DNA from: Bacillota bacterium | Lineage (GTDB): Bacteria; Eremiobacterota; SpSt-956; JAKJGF01 | Reading direction: 5' to 3' | Assembly: GCA_029555925.1 (NCBI GenBank) | Contig: JAKPQU010000069.1 | Coordinates: forward strand, 1-11,471 | DNA: 11,471 nt | Translations under genes and position numbers: made by a program | The notes under the pieces: model-generated | Seen by the model: only the letters and a program-made list of their open reading frames with translations | Told to the model about the DNA's origin: nothing | The model's database searches: none | Part shown: positions 1-11,203 of the stretch, in pieces | How the letters are laid out: every line of letters starts with the position of its first letter | Position numbering within the stretch: the first letter of the stretch is position 1

Positions 1-2
1 AA

Positions 3-455
3 ATAAAACATATAAAATCGGTATGTAATATACTAAAGAAAAACCATATTTCTGCCAGGTATCTCGTTGCAGGTTCTCAGATATTTTTAATAGATCCCGG
101 AGAAGAAACGTTACAGGGAATAACCTTCGCCACTCTTTTTAATACAGGAACAAATGATGTAAATGCTGAAAAATTTATTAAACTTTTTAAGGATAATTTT
201 GGCGGCATTAAACCGGATCAGTTAAATGCACTTTCCTATGATGCTACATTGTTAATGAGTAAAGCTATTTCAGAAGGCGGTATAAAAAGGGAAGATATTA
301 AAAGTTATTTATCCTCTCTTGGAGTGGAAAGACCTCCTTTTATAGGAGTTACAGGCGTTACTGCCTTTGATAAAACAGGCTCAGTTCAAAAAGATATGCT
401 TCTTATAAATATTAAAAATCATATGTTCCAGCCAGTAGGTGTTATATCTATATAA
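3..455 (+). CDS. C-terminal part of a type 1 periplasmic-binding (LivJ-like) protein, 5' end outside window
   Basis: The reading frame is open from the window edge to a TAA at 453-455, giving 150 visible residues, so the gene is cut off at its 5' end. The visible part looks like the last third of a type 1 (leucine/isoleucine/valine-binding) solute-binding domain. It has a GEETLQGI-like segment, a block resembling AEKFIKLFKDNFGG followed by LSYDATLLMSKAI, and then GVTG.TAFDKTGSV near the end. The same C-terminal pattern (YD....L..A., then a GLTG-like turn) recurs in the 471-2759 product, and its YD helix recurs in the 3210-5693 product. It is therefore probably a third member of this tandem family and may carry an N-terminal kinase fold upstream. 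That part is inference, because no kinase or membrane segment is visible here. The next gene's ribosome site overlaps its stop codon, which indicates co-transcription. Confidence 0.8.
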   Translation: MKHIKSVCNILKKNHISARYLVAGSQIFLIDPGEETLQGITFATLFNTGTNDVNAEKFIKLFKDNFGGIKPDQLNALSYDATLLMSKAISEGGIKREDIKSYLSSLGVERPPFIGVTGVTAFDKTGSVQKDMLLINIKNHMFQPVGVISI

Positions 456-460
456 AGGAG
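454..460 (+). promoter_or_regulatory. Ribosome binding site that fixes a TTG start
   Basis: AAAGGAG overlaps the TAA stop of the upstream gene and lies 10 bases before TTG at 471. No ATG lies near enough to compete, and the encoded protein begins with the same short lead-in to the kinase fold as its paralogue (MLEKGQILNNRY versus MLSAGDIIKGEY). The TTG start is therefore well supported, and the spacing points to translational coupling. Confidence 0.75.
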
Positions 461-470
461 TTAACAGAGA

Positions 471-2759
471 TTGCTGGAGAAAGGTCAAATATTAAATAAT
501 CGCTATAAAATTCTGGAAATAATAAAAGTGGGTGTAAAGAAAGCCGTTTATACGGCAGTTGACCTCAATTTGCCCGGTAAACAGTGGATTATAAAAGAAA
601 TTTTTTCGCAACATGTAAAAGAAGAGCAAAAAGAACAATTTCACAGGGAACTTCAGGTTAGAGCAGGGATTATGGCCCAGATAGATTATATATCTTTACC
701 TTCTCTTGTAGATTTTTTCACATGTGATGAGAAATGTTATTTTGTATTTGCATATATTTATGGTAAAAGCCTGGCCTCTATGGTTAATAATTCATCAGGA
801 TATTTTTCTGACGAAGAATCTGTAAAAGAATTTATTTTCCAGATGGTTCAAACTTCTATTTATTTCCAGAAACATCCTATCTTTAATATTTCTATTGAAT
901 TCAAGCCTGAAAATATCTTTATTGATTCTATGGGTATGGTAAAATTTTTAGATTATTCTATATCTGAAGAAAGTACTGTTAATAAAATATATACAACAAA
1001 ATTTCTTGAGACTATTTATAAAAAAAGAATTGACCATGACGTTATATTAACAGGCAAGATGTTTTCCTATCTTCTCTCATCAGGTAAAGATATTTTAGAA
1101 CCTGAAAGCTACACATGCGTGGAAGATATTTTAACTGCTCTGTCTCCGGGAAAGAATATGTTTAAAGGTAATTCCATTCTGATTACTGAAACCGGCAAAA
1201 CAGAGGAAGAGGAAAGAATACCGGAAAGAGTAAATAAAGATCTTTCCTGCCAGTCAATAGAAGAATTTATGGAAGAAGGTTTTACCGGAGATGAATTACC
1301 TGTTAACAGCCATTACCGTTCGGGTAAGACGAAGAATGAGGAACTGTGCTCGCATCACGCATCACCCATCACGCATCACGATTCTCATATGAACGGATAT
1401 GTAGCGAGACGTTCTGAAGATAGATTTTTTTTTAAATCCTCTTTTCTTCTATTATTTTTACTCAGTATTATAATGATTGTTATAATAAATGCAGTTCGTT
1501 TAACCGGCATATTGTCTGTTTCCGGAGCCGGTGATAATAAAAATTCGGTACAGAATGAATTACTACCTATTGAACCGGAAGAATTAAAAAAGAGAGCAAT
1601 TTATTATTATAATCTGAGAGACTATTCCAGAGCTATTTCTCTCTTTAAAAGACATCTGTTAAATTACCCCGGAGACGGAGAAGCAAGTATATATCTTTCG
1701 AACAGTTATATTTTAATGGGAGAAAGCAAGAAATTATATATAGGACTTGGAATATCTATTACAGGTGATGACAGCCAGGTCGGTCAGGCTGTAATGCAGG
1801 GTATCGCAATGGGAATCAGAGAAATAAATTCCGCTGAAAGAAATATAAAATTTGTTATAGTAATAAAAGATGATAATTCCAATCCTGATAAAGCCAGGGA
1901 AATAGCTCGTAGTTTCGTAGAAGATAATAAAATTTCAATAGTAATAGGTCATGGGAGAAGTTCCTGTACACTTGCAGCAGGCAAAATTTATAATGAAGGT
2001 AAACTTCCTGATATATCTCCCATATCTACAAACCCGGTGATATCAAATATTGGTCCCTACATTTTCAGAACATGCGGAAGTGATATGTCACAGGCAAGAA
2101 CTCTTGTAGATATTGCTATGAATAAGTTAAAAGTAAAAAATATTGCCATTATGTGTAATTTATATGAGCCTTATTCAAACAGTTTATCCTCTTTTGTAAA
2201 AAAATATTCTTTGAATAATCTGAATATTGTTTGCCAGGAAAACTACAGTTTTAATGATAGTGACTTTACGTTACAGGTATTGAATATAATAAATAAATCT
2301 CCCGATTTAGTGTTTATAGCAGGTTATGATGTTCAGGCTCTGTCTATTATAAAGCAACTCAGAGAAAAAGGATTTAAGGGTTATATAATGGGTGGAGATG
2401 CACTTTATACACAGAGAATGATAAATCAGGGAAAAGAATATGTTGATGGCTTTATCTGTACAACATTTTTTCATCCTGATATTTCTTCCAATGATACATT
2501 TGTAAAGGATTTTAGAAAACTTTTTGGCGGAGGTACTCCCAATCCCATAGCAGCCCAGGCATATGATAGTATAAAATTAATATCCTGTGCCTTAGATGAT
2601 TCTATAGACAGAAATAGTCTTCAAAAAAATCTTTCAGAGATAGGGAGTAAAGGTAAAAGGTTCAGAGGATTAACAGGAGAAATAAATTTTACGGAACATA
2701 GAGAATCCGGCAACTGGATAGTTGTAAAAATCCATGGAGGTAAATATATACCATTATGA
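471..2759 (+). CDS. Membrane receptor-like Ser/Thr pseudokinase with C-terminal LivJ-like ligand-binding domain
   Basis: The 762-residue protein starts at TTG. Residues 12-225 are a kinase fold. Residues 322-341 form one transmembrane helix. Residues 370-418 are a TPR-like helical pair, and residues 422-760 are a type 1 periplasmic-binding domain. The kinase keeps the beta-3 lysine (K42), K145, N148 of the catalytic loop and D161. However, the glycine loop retains only G21, HRD reads SIE (E143), DFG reads DYS, and the activation segment is about ten residues short with no APE motif. Phosphotransfer is therefore doubtful, though nucleotide binding remains possible. The binding domain is close to the LivJ pattern: IGHGRSSCT at 492-500, SPISTNP at 516-522, and a FRT.GSD..Q segment at 532-541. 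This suits an amino-acid or amide ligand. The topology should put the kinase fold inside and the sensor outside. A GC-rich heptamer array encodes residues 294-303 of the linker before the membrane helix. The gene lies just upstream of an intact-kinase paralogue. Confidence 0.88.
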   Translation: MLEKGQILNNRYKILEIIKVGVKKAVYTAVDLNLPGKQWIIKEIFSQHVKEEQKEQFHRELQVRAGIMAQIDYISLPSLVDFFTCDEKCYFVFAYIYGKSLASMVNNSSGYFSDEESVKEFIFQMVQTSIYFQKHPIFNISIEFKPENIFIDSMGMVKFLDYSISEESTVNKIYTTKFLETIYKKRIDHDVILTGKMFSYLLSSGKDILEPESYTCVEDILTALSPGKNMFKGNSILITETGKTEEEERIPERVNKDLSCQSIEEFMEEGFTGDELPVNSHYRSGKTKNEELCSHHASPITHHDSHMNGYVARRSEDRFFFKSSFLLLFLLSIIMIVIINAVRLTGILSVSGAGDNKNSVQNELLPIEPEELKKRAIYYYNLRDYSRAISLFKRHLLNYPGDGEASIYLSNSYILMGESKKLYIGLGISITGDDSQVGQAVMQGIAMGIREINSAERNIKFVIVIKDDNSNPDKAREIARSFVEDNKISIVIGHGRSSCTLAAGKIYNEGKLPDISPISTNPVISNIGPYIFRTCGSDMSQARTLVDIAMNKLKVKNIAIMCNLYEPYSNSLSSFVKKYSLNNLNIVCQENYSFNDSDFTLQVLNIINKSPDLVFIAGYDVQALSIIKQLREKGFKGYIMGGDALYTQRMINQGKEYVDGFICTTFFHPDISSNDTFVKDFRKLFGGGTPNPIAAQAYDSIKLISCALDDSIDRNSLQKNLSEIGSKGKRFRGLTGEINFTEHRESGNWIVVKIHGGKYIPL
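1351..1380 (+). repeat. Heptanucleotide tandem array (CGCATCA x4) inside a coding region
   Basis: Four consecutive 7-base units run from 1351 to 1378: CGCATCA, CGCATCA, CCCATCA, CGCATCA, followed by CG. The tract is about 60% G+C in AT-rich surroundings. It lies in frame in the juxtamembrane linker of the pseudokinase receptor and encodes a His/Ser-rich stretch. A related array occurs at 2778-2805. Confidence 0.85.
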
Positions 2760-2777
2760 ATATACTTTATATTATTT

Positions 2778-2805
2778 CGCGTCCACCGTCATCCGTCACG
2801 CGTCA
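2778..2805 (+). repeat. Second heptanucleotide array at a gene junction
   Basis: The four units are CGCGTCC, ACCGTCA, TCCGTCA and CGCGTCA, followed by CGA. The core C[GC]C[AG]TCA matches most units of the 1351-1380 array, and both tracts end in CGA. It is about two thirds G+C and sits just after the stop of the pseudokinase receptor, before the most likely start of the next small gene. Confidence 0.78.
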
Positions 2806-2817
2806 CGACTGAAAAAA

Positions 2818-3198
2818 ATGTCTTATTTTGCCAGAGTAGAAAAAGCAGAAGAATATAATATGTTGCAGGAAGGAGAAGTCACACTTAAAATAGAAGGTTT
2901 ATCATTAAGGTGTGAAACAGATGATTTATTTATAGAAGAAACCCATTGTATCGTTGATCTCTATGTGAAACATGGAGAAATAACAAAGACTGAATACAGA
3001 GATTTTTTCTTTGATTTACTTGAAACGGATGATTGTGTTATTATTATAGGTGGTAAAGTTAAGCGAAAGTTTAACGAATATAATTTTTTGATAGAAAGTC
3101 TTCTGGATATTGAAATAATGGTTGATGAAATTACGGACTTTTTTGTGGGAGATTTTGTAATAGCAAAAGGAGTATTGCATGCCAGCCTGGCAGGGTGA
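2818..3198 (+). CDS. Small unrecognised beta-rich protein between two receptor kinases
   Basis: I do not recognise this family. From ATG 2818 the product has 126 residues, with no signal peptide, no membrane helix and no cysteine pair pattern. It is acidic and appears rich in beta strands, for example the run CVIIIGGKVKRKF and a final DFVIAKGVLHASL. The alternation could suit an OB-like barrel, but that is only a weak impression. The start is uncertain. The frame stays open back to an ATG at 2734 inside the upstream gene, but those extra 28 codons are partly made of the heptamer array (2778-2805) and look unlike the rest. Neither start has a clear ribosome site, and an internal ATG at 2860 is also possible. 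The TGA stop overlaps the next gene's GAGGTGA site. It therefore probably belongs to the same transcript as the receptors and may assist them. Confidence 0.6.
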   Translation: MSYFARVEKAEEYNMLQEGEVTLKIEGLSLRCETDDLFIEETHCIVDLYVKHGEITKTEYRDFFFDLLETDDCVIIIGGKVKRKFNEYNFLIESLLDIEIMVDEITDFFVGDFVIAKGVLHASLAG

Positions 3199-3203
3199 GG
3201 TGA
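3197..3203 (+). promoter_or_regulatory. Ribosome binding site for the active receptor kinase
   Basis: GAGGTGA overlaps the TGA stop of the small upstream gene and sits six bases before ATG 3210. This supports that start and suggests translational coupling. Confidence 0.7.
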
Positions 3204-3209
3204 ACAATT

Positions 3210-5693
3210 ATGCTTTCGGCAGGAGATATAATAAAGGGAGAATACAAAGTTATTAAAGTCATTGGTAATGGTGGCATGGGCTCTATATACCTGTGTGCTG
3301 AGGTCAAAGAGAGTAATAAAAAATGGGCATTAAAGGAAATGAGATTAACTCAGATTCAGGCAGAAATGCAGGAAAAAGCTACAAAACATTTTGAAATGGA
3401 AGCAGAAATTTTATCCAGGTTAAATCACCTTAATTTACCGACGGTAAAAGAATATTTTAAAGAAAATGGAAATTATTATCTGGTAATGGAATTTATTGAA
3501 GGCGAGGATCTCGGGAAGTTGCTTGACAGAAGCGCAACTCCTTTCTCTGAAGAACTTGTTTTGAAGTGGGGAACTCAGATAGCGACTGCCCTGTATTTTC
3601 TGCATATTCAAAAACCTCACCCCATTATATACAGAGATTTAAAACCATCCAATATTATCGTTACTCCTGAAGGCAATATAAAGTTAATCGATTTTGGAAT
3701 TGCCAGATTTTTTCAGCCAGGTAAGAAGAAAGATACAATTCAGATGGGGTCACTGGGCTACGCTCCTCCCGAACAGTTCGGTGAAGGTCAGACTGATGAG
3801 AGATCTGATATTTATTCTCTTGGAGTAACATTACATCAACTGCTTACCAAAAGAGATCCTGCCGAAGCAGATAATCCATTCAAAATCCCACTGGTAAGAA
3901 CAATGAATAAAGATGTGTCTATTGAACTTGAAAGAATAATACAGAGATCTACCCAGTTTGAAGCTATAAGAAGATATCAAAAAGTCAGTGAGTTAAAAAG
4001 AGATTTAAAATCTCTTTATGATGAAAAATTAAGAAAATCCAGACAAATGCCTCAGGCACCTCAACTTCCTGTATCTGTTCAGCCGCCGACTATTGCAATC
4101 AGTGCGGTAGAAATGGAAAGACTTCCCGGTCATGGGAAACCCCAGGATGTTCAATATTCTCATCCCGGGAAACCAGGGGAAAATGTTATAGAAAAAAAAG
4201 AAGCCAGTAAAGATTCAGAGGTCAGCAAAGATAAAATTAAAGAAGCCGGTAAAGATTCAAATGAAGAAAAGCTAGATAAAGGTGATGAAAAACAGGAGAA
4301 AAAAATTCCTTATAGAGCTAAAAAGAAAAAATCTCTTCTTGCTACTACTTTTATTATTATTTTGTTTATTTCCTTACCTGTTCTATTATATTATTTAAAA
4401 CCTCCATGGGCTATAAAATATTTGTCTTTTATACCAAGTTTTCATTCAGTATCTCTTCCTGAAGTGACACCTTCCCCTGCTGTGGAGACTTTAAATCTAA
4501 AAGAACAGGCTCTGAGCAAGTATAACGACGGAAATTTTTCGGAAGCAACCGGTCTTATAAATGAATCTCTAAAAAATTTTCCTGCTGATCCAGAAGCTAT
4601 GATAATTAAATCCAATATAGAACTTGCTGTTCAGGGTAATGATAAATTTTCTTTAGGTTTAATAGTATCCGGGAAAGGTAAATATACTTACGACGGAGAG
4701 GATATGATGAAAGGTGCTTTCCTTGCCCAGAAAGAAATAAATTCTAATTTAGGTGTAAGAGGTAAAATGTTAAAAGTGGATATAATAAATGATTTTTCTG
4801 ATGTAAATCTGGCATTTAATAGTATGAGTCGTATAAAATCAGATAATTTTACAGCATTTATTGGTCCTGATGATTATAATGTTTATATGTCTGTCGCACC
4901 TCTGTTCAAAACTTCAGGTATGCTACAGTTTACTCCCTGTTTATCTATGATAAATAATCAGAAGGATAGACCTTTTACATTTGGATTATCTCCTGATATA
5001 AGAAGTGAGTTAAAAGCTATATACAAATTGATATATGGAAAACTGAATAAAAAGAAAATTGCTACTATTTATGACATTCAAAACCCGTATTTTTTCGAGT
5101 TAAATTATATTTTTAAAGAGGAAATTTTATCAAAAGAACGAACTATAATAAATGATGTCCTGGTCAGAGAGGATAGTATAAGGGAACAAAAAGAAATAAA
5201 TAGAATATTAGATAGTCTGGCCATAAGCAAACCGGAAGTGATTTTGTTTTTTTCTTCACCTTATCTGATAAAGCAACTTGCCACAGAAATAAGAAAGAAA
5301 GATAAGGATGTTATTTTTGTTACAGGACACTGGGCTATGTCCGGTCAGCTAATATCAAAAGAAAATGATGTAACGGAAGGCCTTTTATGCCTCTGTCCTC
5401 TATTAAAAGATGAAGAAGGTTTTGTAAAAAAATACAGGGAGGTGTTTTCTGATAGTATAACCCTGCGAGCAATACAGGTATATGATACTCTTATCTTATT
5501 GAAAGAAGCTATTAATGCCAGGGGGTTTCGTAGAGAGGCTATCAGGTCTTACCTGATGGCTTTTGATGCGGATAATCCTTACCGGGGGAAAAGTGTTACT
5601 TTTTACTTTTCAGGCAGGGATAGTCATAAAGAAACCGGGTGGAGAGTTTTGCAGATTCTAAAGCATAATTTTACTGTCCACTCTGAAATATAA
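3210..5693 (+). CDS. Membrane receptor-like Ser/Thr kinase with C-terminal type 1 periplasmic-binding domain
   Basis: This 827-residue kinase looks catalytically complete. The glycine loop is GNGGMG at 19-24, and the beta-3 lysine is K42 (ALKEM). The helix C glutamate is probably E64. YRDLKPSN spans 141-148, DFG is at 161-163, APPE is at 185-188, and the SDIYSLG aspartate is D200. A Pro-rich and then Lys/Glu-rich linker (about 275-373) leads to one membrane helix at about 374-395. A TPR-like pair follows at 426-475, then a type 1 binding domain at 480-820. The predicted arrangement is a cytoplasmic Hanks-type kinase controlled by an extracytoplasmic sensor. Its pocket differs from LivJ: where the paralogue has SSCT and STNP, this protein has IGPDDYNVYM (551-560) and TPCLSM (575-580). 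The ligand may therefore differ, or the domain may act without one. PASTA repeats, usual in PrkC/PknB kinases, are absent. It is probably co-transcribed with the two genes upstream. Confidence 0.93.
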   Translation: MLSAGDIIKGEYKVIKVIGNGGMGSIYLCAEVKESNKKWALKEMRLTQIQAEMQEKATKHFEMEAEILSRLNHLNLPTVKEYFKENGNYYLVMEFIEGEDLGKLLDRSATPFSEELVLKWGTQIATALYFLHIQKPHPIIYRDLKPSNIIVTPEGNIKLIDFGIARFFQPGKKKDTIQMGSLGYAPPEQFGEGQTDERSDIYSLGVTLHQLLTKRDPAEADNPFKIPLVRTMNKDVSIELERIIQRSTQFEAIRRYQKVSELKRDLKSLYDEKLRKSRQMPQAPQLPVSVQPPTIAISAVEMERLPGHGKPQDVQYSHPGKPGENVIEKKEASKDSEVSKDKIKEAGKDSNEEKLDKGDEKQEKKIPYRAKKKKSLLATTFIIILFISLPVLLYYLKPPWAIKYLSFIPSFHSVSLPEVTPSPAVETLNLKEQALSKYNDGNFSEATGLINESLKNFPADPEAMIIKSNIELAVQGNDKFSLGLIVSGKGKYTYDGEDMMKGAFLAQKEINSNLGVRGKMLKVDIINDFSDVNLAFNSMSRIKSDNFTAFIGPDDYNVYMSVAPLFKTSGMLQFTPCLSMINNQKDRPFTFGLSPDIRSELKAIYKLIYGKLNKKKIATIYDIQNPYFFELNYIFKEEILSKERTIINDVLVREDSIREQKEINRILDSLAISKPEVILFFSSPYLIKQLATEIRKKDKDVIFVTGHWAMSGQLISKENDVTEGLLCLCPLLKDEEGFVKKYREVFSDSITLRAIQVYDTLILLKEAINARGFRREAIRSYLMAFDADNPYRGKSVTFYFSGRDSHKETGWRVLQILKHNFTVHSEI
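4197..4259 (+). repeat. Two 21-base near-identical direct repeats in the kinase linker
   Basis: The segments 4197-4217 and 4239-4259 differ at one base and are spaced 42 bases apart, in frame. They encode a duplicated 14-residue unit beginning KEASKDS (330) and KEAGKDS (344) in the charged juxtamembrane linker. This is probably a local duplication in a disordered region, and the Ser residues could be phosphorylation sites. Confidence 0.7.
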
Positions 5694-5850: not shown

Positions 5851-7617
5851 TTGAAATGTCCTGATTGCGGAACGGAAAATCTCGATGGAAGTGTTTTCTG
5901 TGATGACTGTGGTGCAAATCTTAAACAAGACAGTGTTGTTACGGAGAATGTTATTAATTTATTACCTAAAGAAGAAGGCAATATTTTGAAGGATACCTAT
6001 GAGGTAGTATCTTTATTAGAAAAAGGAGTTATAAATAAATATAGAGCTGTCGATAAAAAAGCAAATAAAGACGTTTTAATTTTAGAACATGAATTTAGAC
6101 CCAGACCTTCTGTTGTAGATGTAGAAAGTGAGGAAATACCGAAGGTTACAGTTCCTTTAGAGGAAGATCCCTTTGGACGTATTTTTGAACTGGTAAAAAA
6201 TTTCGACCATAAGAATTTAATTAAAATATTAGATTATTTTCAGGATAAAGGCAGGTCTTATCTTGTAGAAGAGTTCTTTTCTACGGAGAGTTTCTTCGAT
6301 AAACTTTCACAGGAAGATTTCAAACCTGATGAAGTACAGGTTATGAAGTGGGGTATAGCTCTGTGTAATGCTATCGCTTATATTCATGAACATGGTATTA
6401 TACATAGAAATCTACAAACAGTTACAATACTTATAAATCCTGATATGGAAGTAAAAATTGCAGGTTTTGAAAGGGCTAGATTAAAAACAGAAGCTAATAT
6501 TGATATAATGGTAAACCACGGTTTTACTGCTCCAGAAGGGTTTGGTATCGGACAGGTTTCTGTTAATGAAACGTCTGATCTTTATTCCCTTGCCTCGATT
6601 ATGTACAGACTTTTAACACGTTACAAACCAGGTGTTGATCAGCAGGGGCCATATATGACTTTTCCGTCTTTTAAAGATATAGGTGTGAAAACCTCTTATC
6701 CTGGTTTAGAAAAGCTTCTATTAAAGTCTCTTTCAGGAACTCAGGAAAAAAGACATCAGAGTGCTCACGAATTAGAAGAAGAGTTAATTGCAGTTCTGGA
6801 AACACCTCCTGTAAATTATATAGAAAAAGGGGCATATATACGTATTCGTGGTTCCATGAAAACCAATGTGGGGAAAGTAAGGGAAATAAACCAGGATAGT
6901 ATGCTCAGTATGCAGCTTACTATGAACGAATGTTCTCAATATACTCAGCCGCTTTTATTTATAGTTGCCGATGGTATGGGGGGAGTGGCAGATGGAGAAG
7001 TTGCAAGTTCTATGGCGATCCGTCACGTATCTGCCAATGTTTCAAAGCTTCTTCTTGATAGAAATTGTCCTTTTCCTCTGGATAGTAATATACTTGCCCG
7101 TGCTGTTGAATATGCCAATACAGAAATATATAATTATTCACAGCAGGAACAATCCAGAAAGGGAATGGGATCCACTATAACATCAGCTCTACTTATAGGG
7201 AACAGACTTCTTATAGCCCATGTAGGAGATACAAGGGCATATATTATGAATAGTAAAGAGATAAGGCAGATAACAGAAGATCATTCCCTTATAGGACGTC
7301 TTTTGAAAATGGGACAACTTACACCGGAGGAAGCAAAAAATTCGCCTCAGAAAAACCTTATATACAGGGCACTGGGAACCAATCCTCAGGTAGAAGTTGA
7401 TAGCTATGAAGAAAAAATGGAACCGGGCGATATAGTTTTAATATGTTGCGATGGTTTATGGGATTATTTCAGCAATGAAGAATTGCATAAACTGGTAAGC
7501 AGATCTAAAGACTTTGATAAAACTACTGCAAAATTAATAGATCTGGCAAATGAACGAGGTGGAAAAGATAATATTACAGTAATTATTTTCCAGCTGGTTT
7601 CCATAGAATCTAATTGA
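5851..7617 (+). CDS. Zinc ribbon-pseudokinase-PP2C protein phosphatase fusion
   Basis: The 588-residue soluble protein has three parts. A four-cysteine zinc ribbon (C3, C6, C17, C20) opens it. A kinase fold spans about 48-318. A PP2C/PPM phosphatase domain spans about 333-585. The kinase part is a clear pseudokinase: no glycine loop, beta-3 lysine replaced by L78, helix C Glu apparently lost, HRD changed to HRN (N187), the catalytic-loop Lys and Asn replaced by Q189 and T192, and DFG changed to AGF (204-206). Structural residues of the fold persist, namely the APE E229, D243 and R301. The PP2C part keeps the metal-binding motifs: INQD at 346-349, DGMGG at 374-378, VGDTRAY at 458-464, CCDGLWD at 532-538 and GKDN at 571-574. 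It should be an active metal-dependent phosphatase. TTG is used as the start because an in-frame TAG lies at 5824 and the MKCP.CG beginning matches the 8981 gene. The pseudokinase probably serves as a docking or regulatory domain. Confidence 0.93.
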   Translation: MKCPDCGTENLDGSVFCDDCGANLKQDSVVTENVINLLPKEEGNILKDTYEVVSLLEKGVINKYRAVDKKANKDVLILEHEFRPRPSVVDVESEEIPKVTVPLEEDPFGRIFELVKNFDHKNLIKILDYFQDKGRSYLVEEFFSTESFFDKLSQEDFKPDEVQVMKWGIALCNAIAYIHEHGIIHRNLQTVTILINPDMEVKIAGFERARLKTEANIDIMVNHGFTAPEGFGIGQVSVNETSDLYSLASIMYRLLTRYKPGVDQQGPYMTFPSFKDIGVKTSYPGLEKLLLKSLSGTQEKRHQSAHELEEELIAVLETPPVNYIEKGAYIRIRGSMKTNVGKVREINQDSMLSMQLTMNECSQYTQPLLFIVADGMGGVADGEVASSMAIRHVSANVSKLLLDRNCPFPLDSNILARAVEYANTEIYNYSQQEQSRKGMGSTITSALLIGNRLLIAHVGDTRAYIMNSKEIRQITEDHSLIGRLLKMGQLTPEEAKNSPQKNLIYRALGTNPQVEVDSYEEKMEPGDIVLICCDGLWDYFSNEELHKLVSRSKDFDKTTAKLIDLANERGGKDNITVIIFQLVSIESN

Positions 7618-7647: not shown

Positions 7648-8934
7648 GTGACCCCAGGCAGTGAGGTTAATTTAAAAAGCACCCTCAGCTATAGTTATAT
7701 TCAGGTCACCAGTGAAGATAAGCTGGTTTATCTTCTAGTGGATGTTATGCCAGTGGCACAATCTTCATTAGGGCACGTACCTCTTAATTTGTCTTTAGTT
7801 CTTGATAAAAGCGGTTCAATGTACGCTCAAGAAAAACTTGAATATGTGAAAAAAGCTGTTATATATGTTATAGACCAGTTACGTTCTGATGATATATCCA
7901 GTATAGTGGCTTTTGCGGACCGTGCAAGAGTGGTTGTTCCGAGCCAGCAGATATTTGATAAAGGCGGAGTAAAAAATACTGTACAGAGAATTGATAATGT
8001 AAGTGTTGGCGGCGGAACTCATATGTTTAAAGGTATAGTTGCTGCATGTGATGAAGTAATGAAAAATTACTCTCCCAATCGTAAAAATCATGTTATATTA
8101 CTTTCTGACGGACTTACTGTAGCTGAGAGTAAGTGTTTAAAGAAATGCAGAGAAGAGGCAGCAAAGGGTATTTCGTTCTCTACTCTTGGTGTAGGTAATG
8201 ATTTTAATCAAAAATTAATGATGGATATTGCAGATACTACGGGAGGTAAGTCCTATTATATAGATGTCCCGAGTGATATTCCTAATATTTTTGCTCAGGA
8301 ATTAAAAGGTGTACAGTCTGTAGTTGTACAGAACCCGACATTACACCTGAAACTCAGTAGAAATGTTCAGGTAAAGAGAGCATATAAGGTTAAACCTCTT
8401 ATAAGTGATCTGGGTTCTCCTCAGGCTATAAACCAGGTTTACTCTGTAAAAATGAGTGACTTACAGAAAGATGAACCTCAATCTATATTGTATGAGTTGA
8501 TATTACCATCCCGCCAGGCAGGTTCCTACAGAATTGCCCAGGCTTCGCTTGAATATGATATAATCATGAAAGGGGAGAAGGGGAAACAGATTGCTCAGGA
8601 TATTGTAATAGCCTATACATCTGATTACAGTCTTACCGGTATGGTAGATAGTTATGTAATGAATCTGGTAGATCTGGTAAGTGTATTCAGACAACAGACA
8701 AGAGCATTAGAACTGGCACAGATTGGTGAACATGCAAAAGCTACCCAGCTTTTGAAAACTGCAGCAACTACTCTGTTAGATAGAGGTCAGAAGGATCTGG
8801 CTACTACCTTCCTTGAAGAAGCCAAAAATATAGAACAGGGAGTAAATACATCTGTTGCAGGTACCAAGAAACTGGAATATGGTACAAGAAAATTAACTCA
8901 AATGTTAGATGATGCGTTTTTGCCACCTATATAG
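7648..8934 (+). CDS. Cytoplasmic von Willebrand factor A (VWA) domain protein
   Basis: The 428-residue protein starts at GTG. AAGGA at 7631-7635 is a plausible ribosome site, 12 bases upstream. The VWA domain, about 45-215, has an intact MIDAS metal site: DKSGS with D53, S55 and S57, T124 in GGGTH, and D154 in LLSDG. Before it is a short beta segment. After it comes a beta-rich region (about 225-325) and a helical C-terminal tail (about 345-400) that looks TPR-like. This layout resembles bacterial VWA proteins annotated as Ca-activated chloride channel-like. However, there is no signal peptide or membrane helix here, so the protein should be cytoplasmic. VWA proteins bind partners through metal and often act with kinases and phosphatases. 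Its place between the PP2C fusion and two FHA proteins suggests an assembly or target role in the same signalling set. A three-codon open frame (7640-7651) overlaps the start. Confidence 0.9.
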   Translation: MTPGSEVNLKSTLSYSYIQVTSEDKLVYLLVDVMPVAQSSLGHVPLNLSLVLDKSGSMYAQEKLEYVKKAVIYVIDQLRSDDISSIVAFADRARVVVPSQQIFDKGGVKNTVQRIDNVSVGGGTHMFKGIVAACDEVMKNYSPNRKNHVILLSDGLTVAESKCLKKCREEAAKGISFSTLGVGNDFNQKLMMDIADTTGGKSYYIDVPSDIPNIFAQELKGVQSVVVQNPTLHLKLSRNVQVKRAYKVKPLISDLGSPQAINQVYSVKMSDLQKDEPQSILYELILPSRQAGSYRIAQASLEYDIIMKGEKGKQIAQDIVIAYTSDYSLTGMVDSYVMNLVDLVSVFRQQTRALELAQIGEHAKATQLLKTAATTLLDRGQKDLATTFLEEAKNIEQGVNTSVAGTKKLEYGTRKLTQMLDDAFLPPI

Positions 8935-8980: not shown

Positions 8981-9625
8981 ATGAAATGCCCTGTATGTGG
9001 AGTTGATAATTTAGAAGGTTCTGCCTATTGTGATGACTGTGGTTCCAAGTTGCCAGCTGCCGGAGCAGCACCTGTAGCAGCCTCACAACCTGTTGCTCCT
9101 CCTCCTGTGGCAGTCACACCTACACCTGTAGTAGGAGGAAAACTTACATGCCAGGCATGTGGGTTTGAAAATAATTTAGGTGAAGCCTTTTGTTCAGATT
9201 GCGGAGCATCTCTGAGCGGAGCTGCGCCGGTAGAAGCGGCGATCCCATCTCCCGTTGTTTCTGGACAACCATCTCCACCTGTAACCCCGGTAGTCCCCGG
9301 TAGACCGGTAGCTAAGTTAATTGAAAAGAAAACTCAAAGAGAGTTTCCCCTTACAGCAGATGTTATGATTGCCGGCAGGCAGAGCCCGGCAGATAATATC
9401 TTCCCTGATCTTGATCTTACTGAAGTTGATACGGATTCCTATGTTTCCAGGAGGCATCTTCAGATAATAAGACAGGGGGAACAATATTTAGTAGAAGATT
9501 TAGGCAGTTCCAACGGTACATTTTTAAATGAAGGGCCTCGCTTAAATCCTGGAATTCAGCAGGCACTCAGCAATGGTGATCGTATTCAATTAGGACAGAC
9601 AGAATTTGTATTCGTAATTTCATAA
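8981..9625 (+). CDS. Double zinc ribbon-FHA domain adaptor protein
   Basis: The 214-residue soluble protein has two zinc ribbons joined by a Pro/Ala/Val-rich linker (about 25-52). The first uses C3, C6, C17 and C20; the second uses C57, C60, C71 and C74. A second Pro-rich linker leads to a C-terminal FHA domain at about 110-214. The FHA domain shows its conserved phosphothreonine-pocket residues: G132-R133, S156-RR-H159 and SSNGT at 176-180. FHA domains bind phosphothreonine peptides, so this protein should read marks placed by Ser/Thr kinases such as the 3210 product. The first zinc ribbon is almost the same as that opening the PP2C fusion (MKCP.CG..NL.GS..CDDCG), which points to a shared partner or recent duplication of the module. 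The neighbours suggest an operon with the VWA and TPR-FHA genes. Confidence 0.93.
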   Translation: MKCPVCGVDNLEGSAYCDDCGSKLPAAGAAPVAASQPVAPPPVAVTPTPVVGGKLTCQACGFENNLGEAFCSDCGASLSGAAPVEAAIPSPVVSGQPSPPVTPVVPGRPVAKLIEKKTQREFPLTADVMIAGRQSPADNIFPDLDLTEVDTDSYVSRRHLQIIRQGEQYLVEDLGSSNGTFLNEGPRLNPGIQQALSNGDRIQLGQTEFVFVIS

Positions 9626-9676: not shown

Positions 9677-11203
9677 ATGGACTGGGAACTCTTGAAGAGA
9701 ATTGATCCTACGAAATTAATCGGAGGAGAAGGTAGTTCTCCTCTGGATCTTTTAACAGGAGATAAAGATAAGGTAAAAACTTCAAAAGATATACCTCTTA
9801 CCGGACTTTATTACAGAAAGCCTGTATTTAAATATAATCCTTCTAAAAGTCTGGCCTGTAAAATCGAATTTTTTGAATCCCAGGATAAAAACCTTTTTGA
9901 TATAGGTTTATTGAAATCTATTACCATAGGAACTGCTGAGAGATATTTTGCAGATGTCTGCAGATACATAGTTAAAAATAAACCACAAAAAGCTTTAACT
10001 AGATTGACAGACGTATTAAATAAAGATCCTCAATACAGTGATGCCTATTTCCTTATGGGTTGTATACTTCTGGAAGCAGAGCAATTCGATAAAGCAAACA
10101 GTTGTTTTCAAAAGGTTTTATTATGTCAGAAATCTCTTGGCAAAGAGTTCAAGAAATATTTACCTTCCTTTCATGTTGAACTTAACCTGAACCTTCCGTC
10201 AAGTTTCTGTATTTTTCCCGAATTACTCGGTGCTACAATGCTGGTATCTATAAGTTACTGGGAAAATGGAAAGAGGTCTGAAGCTATTTCTGCCCTGGAG
10301 CAGACAGAATCTATTTTTCCCAAAAACTCCTCGGTTTCATATTTAAGTACTTATTTTAAAATGGAAATGGGAAAATATAAAGAAGTAATTACGCAGCTTT
10401 CCGGTTTTGAACCATCCAGTATTATGGACCTGGCAACCTATACATTATTGGGAGCATCTCTTTACAGTACCTATGATTTTTCAGGAGCAATACAGGTATT
10501 GAAGAATGCCCTTAAAATTTCTGATAAGTTTGAACAGGATGAACAGAACAAGCTCATTCGTTATCACCTGGGAAGAGCTTATTTAAACAGAGGCGATAAA
10601 TTTGAAGGCCTTCAAGAATTGCAGAAAATTGCTTCTATAGATCCGGATTATCTGGATATAAATTCTATATTAAAAGATCCTTCCGCGGGAGCAAAACCTT
10701 ATGCTAAGGAAAAACCTGCAGAAATAGAATCAAAGGTATCTCCTGCACCGGAGAAAAAAGCGTCTGTTTCTCCTCCTGCAGAGGATAAACCTGTTCCAGT
10801 TCCACCTCACACTCAGAAAAGTGAAGTAGAAAAAATAATTCCTCAACAGGAACATATAGATATGCCGGTGAATATACTTTCCATGGCTGATGATACAAAA
10901 GTTCTACCTCCCTTTGGAGCCAGGCTTTTAATTAAAAGTACAGGTGAGACTTTCCCGATTAAGCTGCAGGAATCTACAACTATTGGTAGAGAAAGTATAA
11001 ATAATATTGCTTTTCCGGAGGATTTTTCTATCTCCAGAAAACAGGCCAGAATACTATGTGAAGAACATAACTTTTATGTAGAAGATCTCGGAAGTACAAA
11101 TGGAACCTACCTGAATAAACGTCGTATAACTGCTAAAATGCCTCTAAAACATAATGATGAAATACAGATGGGCAAAAAGACATTTACTTTTCTTGTAGAG
11201 TGA
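9677..11203 (+). CDS. TPR-repeat protein with C-terminal FHA domain
   Basis: The 508-residue soluble protein begins at ATG, preceded by AGGTGG at 9667-9672. Residues 1-90 are unassigned. Several TPR-like helical pairs follow, including about 103-150 (KALTRLTDVLNKDPQYSDAY), 185-215, 255-283 and 293-325 (a YHLGRAYLNRG motif). A disordered Lys/Glu/Pro-rich linker runs from about 335 to 400. The C-terminal FHA domain, about 412-508, has IGRES (G437, R438), ISRKQA (452-457) and the STNGT motif (473-477). In the usual SRxH segment the histidine is glutamine here, but the residues that contact phosphothreonine (Arg, Ser, Asn) remain. It should therefore still bind phosphothreonine. TPR repeats suggest a scaffold that brings partners to phosphorylated kinase or adaptor. 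It closes the run of genes on this strand. The FHA domain differs clearly from that of the preceding gene, so this is not a simple tandem copy. Confidence 0.9.
   Translation: MDWELLKRIDPTKLIGGEGSSPLDLLTGDKDKVKTSKDIPLTGLYYRKPVFKYNPSKSLACKIEFFESQDKNLFDIGLLKSITIGTAERYFADVCRYIVKNKPQKALTRLTDVLNKDPQYSDAYFLMGCILLEAEQFDKANSCFQKVLLCQKSLGKEFKKYLPSFHVELNLNLPSSFCIFPELLGATMLVSISYWENGKRSEAISALEQTESIFPKNSSVSYLSTYFKMEMGKYKEVITQLSGFEPSSIMDLATYTLLGASLYSTYDFSGAIQVLKNALKISDKFEQDEQNKLIRYHLGRAYLNRGDKFEGLQELQKIASIDPDYLDINSILKDPSAGAKPYAKEKPAEIESKVSPAPEKKASVSPPAEDKPVPVPPHTQKSEVEKIIPQQEHIDMPVNILSMADDTKVLPPFGARLLIKSTGETFPIKLQESTTIGRESINNIAFPEDFSISRKQARILCEEHNFYVEDLGSTNGTYLNKRRITAKMPLKHNDEIQMGKKTFTFLVE

Follow-up and report, generated by a model that had tools for sequence, protein, structure and literature searches.

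Kinases are recognized by a series of named motifs with established meanings, such as the glycine loop, HRD, DFG and APE, and PASTA kinases have a PP2C partner. GarA and OdhI are FHA proteins, and the GABA-B and ErbB2/ErbB3 receptors split ligand binding and signalling between chains. In the PknG-GlnX-GlnH-GarA/OdhI system of Actinobacteria, as outlined in one part of its description, an outside amino-acid-binding protein has been proposed to control a Ser/Thr kinase (PMC6069109). Bacterial pseudokinase families include ActPs1-3, GLW, CP1, DYD and DLHK; passages of one account describe DYD members as membrane-associated and defined by a beta3 Arg and a DYD motif, CP1 members as having a COG3899 domain and no membrane helix, and DLHK members are said to be without membrane helices (PMC12599244).

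The window, which is the whole stretch of 11,471 nucleotides analysed here, comes from an uncultured bacterium and appears to encode three adjacent membrane receptors, R1, R2 and R3, with amino-acid-binding-type sensors. Judged by motifs only R3 looks like a working kinase, and R1 and R2 look like impaired kinases; at the level of sequence the term kinase fold is valid for all three (for R1 via its relatives), and the term kinase, by canonical motifs, for R3 only. We tentatively favour, at a probability of roughly 0.45, a mixed receptor in which the pseudokinase chains would sense and R3 would phosphorylate, the complex, ligand, allostery, substrates and topology all being putative.

Three predicted receptor genes and their architecture

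R1 (3..455, + strand) is the C-terminal 150 aa piece of a putative pseudokinase receptor whose gene start lies outside the window, and its stop is separated by 15 bases from the start of R2 (471..2759, +), a putative pseudokinase receptor of 762 aa with a TTG start. R3 (3210..5693, +) is a predicted receptor kinase of 827 aa with canonical motifs. The preliminary description had claimed two complete fusion proteins, and both reading frames were recovered; the domain search that it proposed found Pkinase and Peripla_BP_6 in each (Pfam; R2, 44.8 and 154.1 bits; R3, 167.1 and 49.1 bits). The succession of kinase fold, one membrane helix, TPR-like segment and type 1 periplasmic-binding domain that it gave for each chain was likewise seen in R2 and R3 by Pfam, hydropathy and AlphaFold2.

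In R2 a degenerate kinase fold (471..1145, end approximate, +; IKVGVKK, IIKE, IEFKPEN and LDYS, no APE segment) precedes the one strong hydrophobic segment, a membrane helix at residues 324-342 (1440..1496, +; mean hydropathy 2.85, helix 324-345 in the model). A TPR-like helical stalk at residues 365-415 follows (1563..1715, +; helices in the model), for which TPR_14 was sub-threshold in Pfam (17.9 bits against a cutoff of 23.5), the TPR call resting mainly on models, and then a Peripla_BP_6 sensor (1722..2756, +). R3 comprises a Hanks-type kinase domain (3237..4043, +; GNGGMG, K42, YRDLKPSN, DFG, APPE), a membrane helix at its one strong hydrophobic segment, residues 375-393 (4332..4388, +; hydropathy and model), a TPR-like stalk at residues 430-475 (4497..4634, +), where helices were seen in the model only and Pfam gave no TPR match at E <= 0.01, and a divergent Peripla_BP_6 sensor (4641..5690, +). 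In both AlphaFold2 models the kinase fold is followed by a helix, a TPR-like helical stalk and a two-lobed fold of the binding-protein type (R2, mean pLDDT 76.4 and pTM 0.56; R3, 75.0 and 0.56; linkers below 50). The top PDB match of the R3 model was S. aureus Stk1, and structural matches of R2 included human GABA-B entries at rank 44 and below. Taking a Pfam score over cutoff and a two-lobed fold together, R2 and R3 both have Peripla_BP_6 domains, as do the R1 relatives by score.

The R1 piece itself scored 29.6 bits for Peripla_BP_6, just below the Pfam cutoff of 31.7. Among the 4 R1 matches in total, P0128, P0130 and P0131 (718, 714 and 729 aa) are 79%, 80% and 55% identical to the whole piece and carry both domains above cutoff (Peripla_BP_6, 80.5-97.7 bits). 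Since these full-length relatives combine a kinase fold, a membrane helix and Peripla_BP_6, the third copy, thought earlier to be cut by the window edge, gains indirect support, and an upstream gene devoid of a kinase fold, which would have spoken against the preliminary description, is not what they indicate. A lone binding protein was also considered for the upstream gene and ruled out, the full-length relatives being kinase-fold fusions.

The flanks of the membrane helices were compared for charge. In R3 there are more Lys/Arg on the kinase side in all eight rows, which supports a sensor predicted to lie outside; for R2, with the same bias in four of six rows and ties in two, this placement is proposed less firmly. 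These biases run counter to a cytoplasmic binding domain, the other outcome that would have told against the preliminary description. The four R1 rows (N-side/C-side Lys/Arg of 3/4, 3/4, 2/5 and 5/4) favour no orientation.

The earlier suggestion that this architecture is uncommon was not borne out. Among 120 matches listed of 6,618 (8,000 candidates scored), at least 21 proteins contain both domains, the window's own being one of the 21, and further cases of the fusion, L009 and L003, come from MAGs bearing the labels Chloroflexi and Armatimonadetes. The combination of kinase and Peripla_BP_6 is not new, and an NCBI product name exists for some members. Besides the window's own, 20 listed rows were aligned (P0001, P0003-P0013, P0015, P0017-P0020, P0025, P0030 and P0046), picked for having both Pfam domains listed, and the 13 "other kinase-sensor proteins" among them are a chosen set; P0032, equal to the receptor of L002 in protein length and contig size, was not entered separately.

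Sensors, kinase folds and alternative readings

LivJ contacts via Ser79 and Thr102 are taken from one docking passage, and position 226 of LivJ is presumed to be an acidic site residue equivalent to R2 D643. By alignment R2 would retain a LivJ/LivK-type amino acid site at S497, T520 and D643, the Ser, Thr and Asp being kept in 6/6 rows. The site is absent from R3 (Y556, S579 and H707 in the window), in which the three positions are Tyr/Phe in 8/8 rows, Ser in 6/8 with Pro in 2/8, and His in 8/8, and from R1, in which the first two are Asp in 4/4 and Leu in 3/4 with one gap. The R3 pocket region is partly conserved (TGH or AGH, and the NPYFFELNYIFKEEIL block, which is kept or nearly so in the 8 aligned R3 rows), and this, with Ser for Thr102 in 6/8, suggests that the R3 sensor may have changed its ligand and not lost ligand binding. 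The three predicted pockets differ from one another, which would fit the view of the preliminary description that the copies sense different small molecules.

In trees R1, R2 and R3 formed separate clades on long branches, without a settled order between clades or a kinase-tree bootstrap, and an origin of the copies by tandem duplication did not emerge from them. The kinase tree was built without the R1 window piece, which holds no kinase letters; the sensor tree took rows with a detected sensor of >250 residues, leaving out the R1 window piece, the proteins of L002 and P0030 among others, and its rows P0121, P0123 and P0008 are over-long (664, 663 and 552 aa). The three pockets and three clades would also suit three independent receptors, each with its own ligand, in which R1 and R2 signal non-catalytically as scaffolds or via FHA or other partners, a role with a precedent in the EssB/YukC pseudokinases, which one passage presents as scaffolds (PMC12599244). 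We regard this as possible but rather unlikely. Two observations speak against it, though neither decisively. Relatives of R1 and R2 share a listed contig size of 13,187, those of R1 and R3 sizes of 61,751 and 45,214, and those of R2 and R3 a size of 20,420 (P0125, P0007), co-occurrence being inferred from equal listed sizes (the P0124 contig, at 45,161, comes close to 45,214 without equalling it). Furthermore, the balance of constraint between kinase and sensor is opposite in R2 and R3: against P0125, R2 is identical at 87/211 kinase and 175/342 sensor residues, and against P0007, R3 is identical at 208/274 and 153/346 (z 7.1; 6.5 with P0124 and P0006; both z values treat residues as independent). 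In these two species comparisons conservation within R3 is far higher in the kinase than in the sensor, and within R2 somewhat higher in the sensor than in the kinase.

A related arrangement was found in L002, where the gene of a membrane pseudokinase ends 1 base before that of a kinase whose C-terminus is sensor-like, and an FHA gene comes next; the sensor-like part was not recognized by Pfam, and the receptor has one weak hydrophobic segment (514-532, 1.63), away from the expected place. In other bacteria, as seen in L009 and in part in P0046, a LivJ-like sensor is joined in a single chain to a kinase that has the catalytic Asp, which indicates that partner chains are not needed in general.

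The R3 window protein has the glycine loop, beta3 Lys, alpha-C Glu, HRD Asp, catalytic Asn, DFG and APE and is a predicted Hanks-type kinase, the HRD His being Tyr; the catalytic-loop and DFG motifs are present in 8/8 rows and the glycine loop and Lys in all 7 rows having an N-lobe. The R1 relatives lack the Hanks-type Ser/Thr motif set, with HRD Asp and DFG Asp each lost in 4/4. The R2 window protein also falls short of it, missing the HRD Arg and Asp, the first Gly, the alpha-C Glu and APE. The losses in R1 relatives and R2 rule out that all three are canonical kinases; of the "tandem receptor-like kinase family" of the preliminary description the fused architecture stands, but two of its three kinases look like pseudokinases.

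Full-length R2 relatives are few, five of the seven matches (P0121-P0125); P0126, with no kinase domain listed, and P0127, with no sensor domain listed, were dropped. Over the six R2 rows the HRD Arg (Ile) is lost in 6/6 and the HRD Asp in 5/6, being Glu in all five rows other than P0125. That R2 is nevertheless a weak or unusual yet active kinase, R2 and R3 both being enzymes, is improbable: the first glycine-loop Gly is Lys in 6/6, the alpha-C Glu is missing in 5/6, the APE Glu is absent in 6/6 and the modelled C-lobe is shortened, although the ATP-site residues (Lys, catalytic-loop Asn and DFG Asp) are kept in 6/6. R2 may not be wholly inactive, given that HRD Asp and DFG are both retained in P0125 and DFG in P0124. 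Least probable of all, the R1 and R2 kinase folds could be decaying remnants without a role, as the faster change of the R2 fold relative to that of R3 might suggest, but the reading frames are open, the main losses recur across species and the R2 kinase fold (41-85% identical) exceeds the linker (14-67%) in each of five comparisons. By this comparison of sequences the R2 kinase fold is still under constraint; the R2 stalk is the most conserved R2 segment in 5/5 comparisons (67-94% identity).

Neighbouring genes and a possible mixed receptor

Between R2 and R3 lies a small ORF (2734..3198, +) of up to 154 aa, a later start being possible, with a weak OB-fold match (18.8 bits, cutoff 27) and no tblastn match in the fetched loci of relatives. 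Downstream of R3, 5851..7617 (+) encodes a zinc ribbon, a pseudokinase (HRN, GFE) and a PP2C phosphatase of the Stp1 family (NF033484, 260.6 bits, cutoff 230), containing VADGMGG, GDTR, DGLWD and GGKDN, which we take to be PP2C motifs. It is followed by a VWA-domain protein (7648..8934, +; Pfam), 90% identical in L001, and two candidate phosphothreonine readers (Pfam, L001 comparison), a double zinc ribbon and FHA protein (8981..9625, +) and a TPR and FHA protein (9677..11203, +). The PP2C-VWA-FHA-FHA order is kept in one relative, L001. Promoter-like sites (52 in the window; shuffles mean 42.1, sd 6.7) and terminator-like sites (7; shuffles 6.4, sd 2.3) did not stand out from shuffled sequence.

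In the mixed receptor R1, R2 and R3 would each cross the membrane once: the kinase fold would lie in the cytoplasm, and the membrane helix would lead through a short helical stalk to an amino-acid-type binding domain outside. R2, perhaps also R1, would bind a small molecule outside; closure of the R2 sensor would be relayed via stalk and helix, and the impaired R2 kinase domain would allosterically control R3, the sole chain with canonical catalytic residues. R3 would then phosphorylate partner proteins in the cytoplasm, which the two FHA proteins would probably read, and the Stp1-like PP2C protein, fused to a degenerate kinase, would remove the mark. Clade-wide motif loss in R1 and R2 as against retention in R3, the LivJ-type residues retained in R2 and altered in R3, the opposite constraint patterns, the continued constraint on the R2 kinase fold, shared listed contig sizes, the L002 arrangement and the downstream gene order were counted for this division, and against it the motifs retained in P0125 and P0124, the partly conserved R3 pocket, the small number of R2 relatives and the 4 R1 hits, the R1 charge ambiguity, the R2 ties (2/6) and single chains of the L009 type. 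A true division of labour, in which a sister chain of like architecture that has lost its site but kept a working kinase is switched allosterically by pseudokinase chains whose amino-acid-type sensors are intact, and a further pseudokinase steers the opposing phosphatase, is a more doubtful proposition. As the genes for the sensors, the kinase and pseudokinases, the phosphatase and the candidate readers are neighbours, ligand, partner and substrate are testable with few proteins.

Comparison with described systems

A proposed control by outside amino-acid binding and TPR elements are shared with the PknG system as described in part of PMC6069109. In that system three different proteins serve as binding protein, membrane protein and soluble kinase, whereas R1-R3 each unite these parts in one chain, with a stalk predicted to be outside. 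Candidate FHA-type targets are a further common feature, GarA and OdhI being FHA proteins. R3 resembles the PASTA kinases PknB/Stk1 in its predicted cytoplasmic Hanks kinase, one helix, predicted outside sensor and putative PP2C partner, but scored 208.7 bits against NF033483 (cutoff 450), and no PASTA domain was matched in it by Pfam. The product name "Bifunctional serine/threonine-protein kinase/ABC transporter substrate-binding protein", borne by the R3 relatives P0003, P0004 and P0006, likewise covers a kinase, membrane helix and Peripla_BP_6 in one chain, but a single chain only, unlike the set with two pseudokinase chains found here.

R2 and R1 are like ActPs1-3, GLW, CP1, DYD and DLHK in that the kinase fold is conserved and the catalytic motifs are degraded (PMC12599244, in part). 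R2 falls outside DYD, having Lys rather than Arg and DYS or DFG rather than DYD, and outside CP1 by its membrane helix. The families in the portion of PMC12599244 that describes them include none with an outside binding-protein sensor such as is proposed for R1 and R2, and "periplasmic", "extracellular" and "substrate-binding" have 0 occurrences in its main text. The eukaryotic receptors GABA-B and ErbB2/ErbB3 offer an analogy to R1-R3, and not a membership, as heteromers in which one chain binds ligand and the other signals, though GABA-B, unlike R1-R3, couples to G proteins. If the division of labour is true, R1-R3 would be the bacterial equivalent of one of these receptors.

Organization of the receptor genes and evidence for a third receptor

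The window appears to be an entire contig of 11,471 bases and contains eight open reading frames 80 aa or longer, which share one strand. R1, the receptor cut at the window edge (3-455), stops 15 bases upstream of R2 (471-2759). A small reading frame (2734-3198) overlaps the end of R2; it gave a weak OB-fold match and was without a match in the loci fetched for the relatives. R3 (3210-5693) begins 11 bases after this frame, and is followed after a 157-base gap by a gene encoding a zinc ribbon, a kinase fold and PP2C (5851-7617), then by VWA, zinc ribbon-FHA and TPR-FHA genes.

The 150-residue R1 piece by itself showed no kinase. A search scored on these 150 residues (507 candidates) yielded four matching proteins. 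Three of them, 714-729 aa long, have both a kinase domain and a Peripla_BP_6 domain; the fourth is partial (604 aa). In Pfam the three full relatives reached 63.8, 78.7 and 90.4 bits with Pkinase; with Peripla_BP_6 they reached 89.8, 80.5 and 97.7 bits. The partial relative gave 87.4 bits for Peripla_BP_6 and no Pkinase match at E <= 0.001 in Pfam; its N-terminal part aligns with the kinase C-lobe of the other R1 relatives. The preliminary description had proposed a probable third receptor beside two full ones, and the fusion of kinase and Peripla_BP_6 in the full R1 relatives supports it indirectly. The longest listed contigs of the three full R1 relatives (13,187, 61,751 and 45,214 bases) equal in size those of P0121, an R2 relative, and of P0005 and P0006, both R3 relatives, respectively, which suggests that these R1 relatives share contigs with these proteins. 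One R1 relative, P0129, is labelled 'Candidatus Eremiobacterota', a name that the taxonomy gives as Vulcanimicrobiota; L001, the locus of a relative, is labelled Bacillota.

Kinase motifs and sensor sites

R3 and its relatives kept the catalytic loop and DFG in all eight aligned rows, and the glycine loop and Lys in 7/7, one further row being without the N-lobe. The six R2 rows all kept the beta3 Lys, the catalytic Asn and the DFG Asp; all six had Lys for the first Gly of the glycine loop and Ile for the HRD Arg, five had Glu for the HRD Asp, five were missing the alpha-C Glu, and the APE Glu was found in none of the six. The one R2 row with an HRD Asp is P0125, in which DFG is also present; P0124, another R2 relative, has kept DFG and lost the HRD Asp. 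Both the HRD Asp and the DFG Asp were lost in all four R1 relatives. Judged by these motifs, R3 looks to be the sole catalytic chain among the three. The catalytic Asp, Lys and Asn together with DFG were present in 13 other kinase-sensor proteins, a set selected from the listed matches, and also in the kinases of the related loci L002 (second gene), L003 and L009. The L009 protein (1418-3685, 756 aa; Pkinase 128 bits, Peripla_BP_6 214.7 bits), from a MAG labelled Chloroflexi, combines in one chain a LivJ-like motif and a kinase carrying HCD instead of HRD.

In sequence the R2 sensor resembles binding proteins for branched-chain amino acids (3td9, E 8.5e-37), aligning with their Ser and S/A-T-N-P motifs; a docking study describes polar contacts to isoleucine from LivJ Ser79 and Thr102 (PMC6983066). 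The Ser, the Thr and a later Asp were kept in all six R2 rows of the alignment. At the same three positions the R3 rows have Tyr or Phe (8/8), Ser (6/8) or Pro (2/8), and His (8/8), and the R1 relatives have, at the first two, Asp (4/4) and Leu (3/4, with one gap). By sequence the R3 sensor matched solved binding proteins weakly (best E 1.9e-4), but its model still fits the binding-protein fold (3td9, TM 0.85 by target). The amino-acid site appears better in R2 than in R3. Parts of the R3 pocket region are conserved in a pattern of their own, and a different ligand is therefore as possible for R3 as none.

Constraint and descent of the three lines

Identity between the window and its relatives was divided differently in the two full receptors. 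For R2, the kinase fold had 87/211 identical residues and the sensor 175/342 against P0125, and 108/211 and 207/343 against P0124; for R3 it was 208/274 in the kinase and 153/346 in the sensor against P0007, and 227/275 and 192/345 against P0006. P0125 and P0007 have the same listed contig size (20,420 bases), and the listed contig sizes of P0124 and P0006 are only near-equal (45,161 and 45,214 bases). The receptor by domain interaction gave z values of 7.1 (P0125/P0007) and 6.5 (P0124/P0006), which are generous because residues were counted as independent. Stalk identity in R2 was 67% and 75% for P0125 and P0124, and 67-94% across five relatives. These counts indicate that R3 is constrained mainly at the kinase, and R2 more at the sensor and most at the stalk.

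R1, R2 and R3 were each set apart by a branch, in the kinase tree as in the sensor tree, with 100% support over 200 bootstrap replicates; from this separation the three lines appear to predate the divergence of the species compared here. An ancient duplication behind them is possible; branches were long in both trees, with no settled order among R1, R2, R3 and the other kinase-sensor proteins. P0001 (883 aa, on a contig of 5,925 bases) is identical to R3 of the window in the segments that were compared. Its linker is longer and contains a repeated segment, and the number of repeat copies in the linker may therefore vary.

Neighbouring genes and a proposed mixed receptor

The contig of L001 starts within R3, 54% identical to that of the window in the best segment, and the comparison with this locus therefore begins at R3. 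The order thereafter is that of the window: PP2C, VWA (90% identical), zinc ribbon-FHA (77%) and TPR-FHA (67%). Past this common block, L001 (7320-12518) carries more co-directed genes, including DUF58, BatA/VWA and an ABC transporter ATPase. In the phosphatase protein, both in the window (5851-7617) and in L001 (1728-3497), a Stp1-type PP2C that appears intact is fused to a degenerate kinase and a zinc ribbon. Between the two, 217/244 residues are identical in the PP2C part and 191/286 in the pseudokinase part, and both have HRN, GFE and Glu for Lys. L002 is a second instance of similar neighbours, its sensor-like part being unrecognised by Pfam and the membrane segment below threshold: the gene of a membrane pseudokinase (FFREMNASN, beta3 Arg; helix 319-337) stops 1 base upstream of one for a kinase whose C-terminus is sensor-like, and an FHA gene (64.9 bits) comes next.

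In the genome of L001 (~5 million bases) the receptor profile A1 matched at least 140 times at E <= 1e-20, mostly through its kinase part, with 150 of 215 candidates scored; there were only two Peripla_BP_6 matches. A contig of 118,786 bases holding L004, another related locus (C69 of genome G003), carries a very large tandem kinase array, with at least 26 kinase matches on one strand from ~1.9 to 98 kb.

Closure of the sensor outside the cell would be relayed by the stalk and the helix to the kinase folds. Because R3 alone looks catalytic and the amino-acid site is better in R2, our preferred model is a mixed receptor, with R3 controlled by R2 and perhaps also by R1. The FHA proteins would be likely readers of the R3 signal and the PP2C protein its likely opponent, as an analogy with PknG signalling suggests.

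Titles and abstract openings of the literature matches listed (for some topics 10 of 34, 8 of 45 or 8 of 780), with thin coverage of subscription papers, contained nothing on fusions of a Ser/Thr kinase with a periplasmic binding domain, nor, within the same scope, on bacterial mixed kinase/pseudokinase receptor sets; both are weak evidence of absence. In general, signalling receptors are described as also using binding-protein domains for sensing, and Ser/Thr kinases as activatable by binding proteins (PMC9602780). In PknG signalling, an amino-acid-binding protein outside the cell is proposed to control a kinase acting on GarA/OdhI (PMC6069109; PMC9769921), and in this proposed control the system would resemble the sensor-kinase set of the window.
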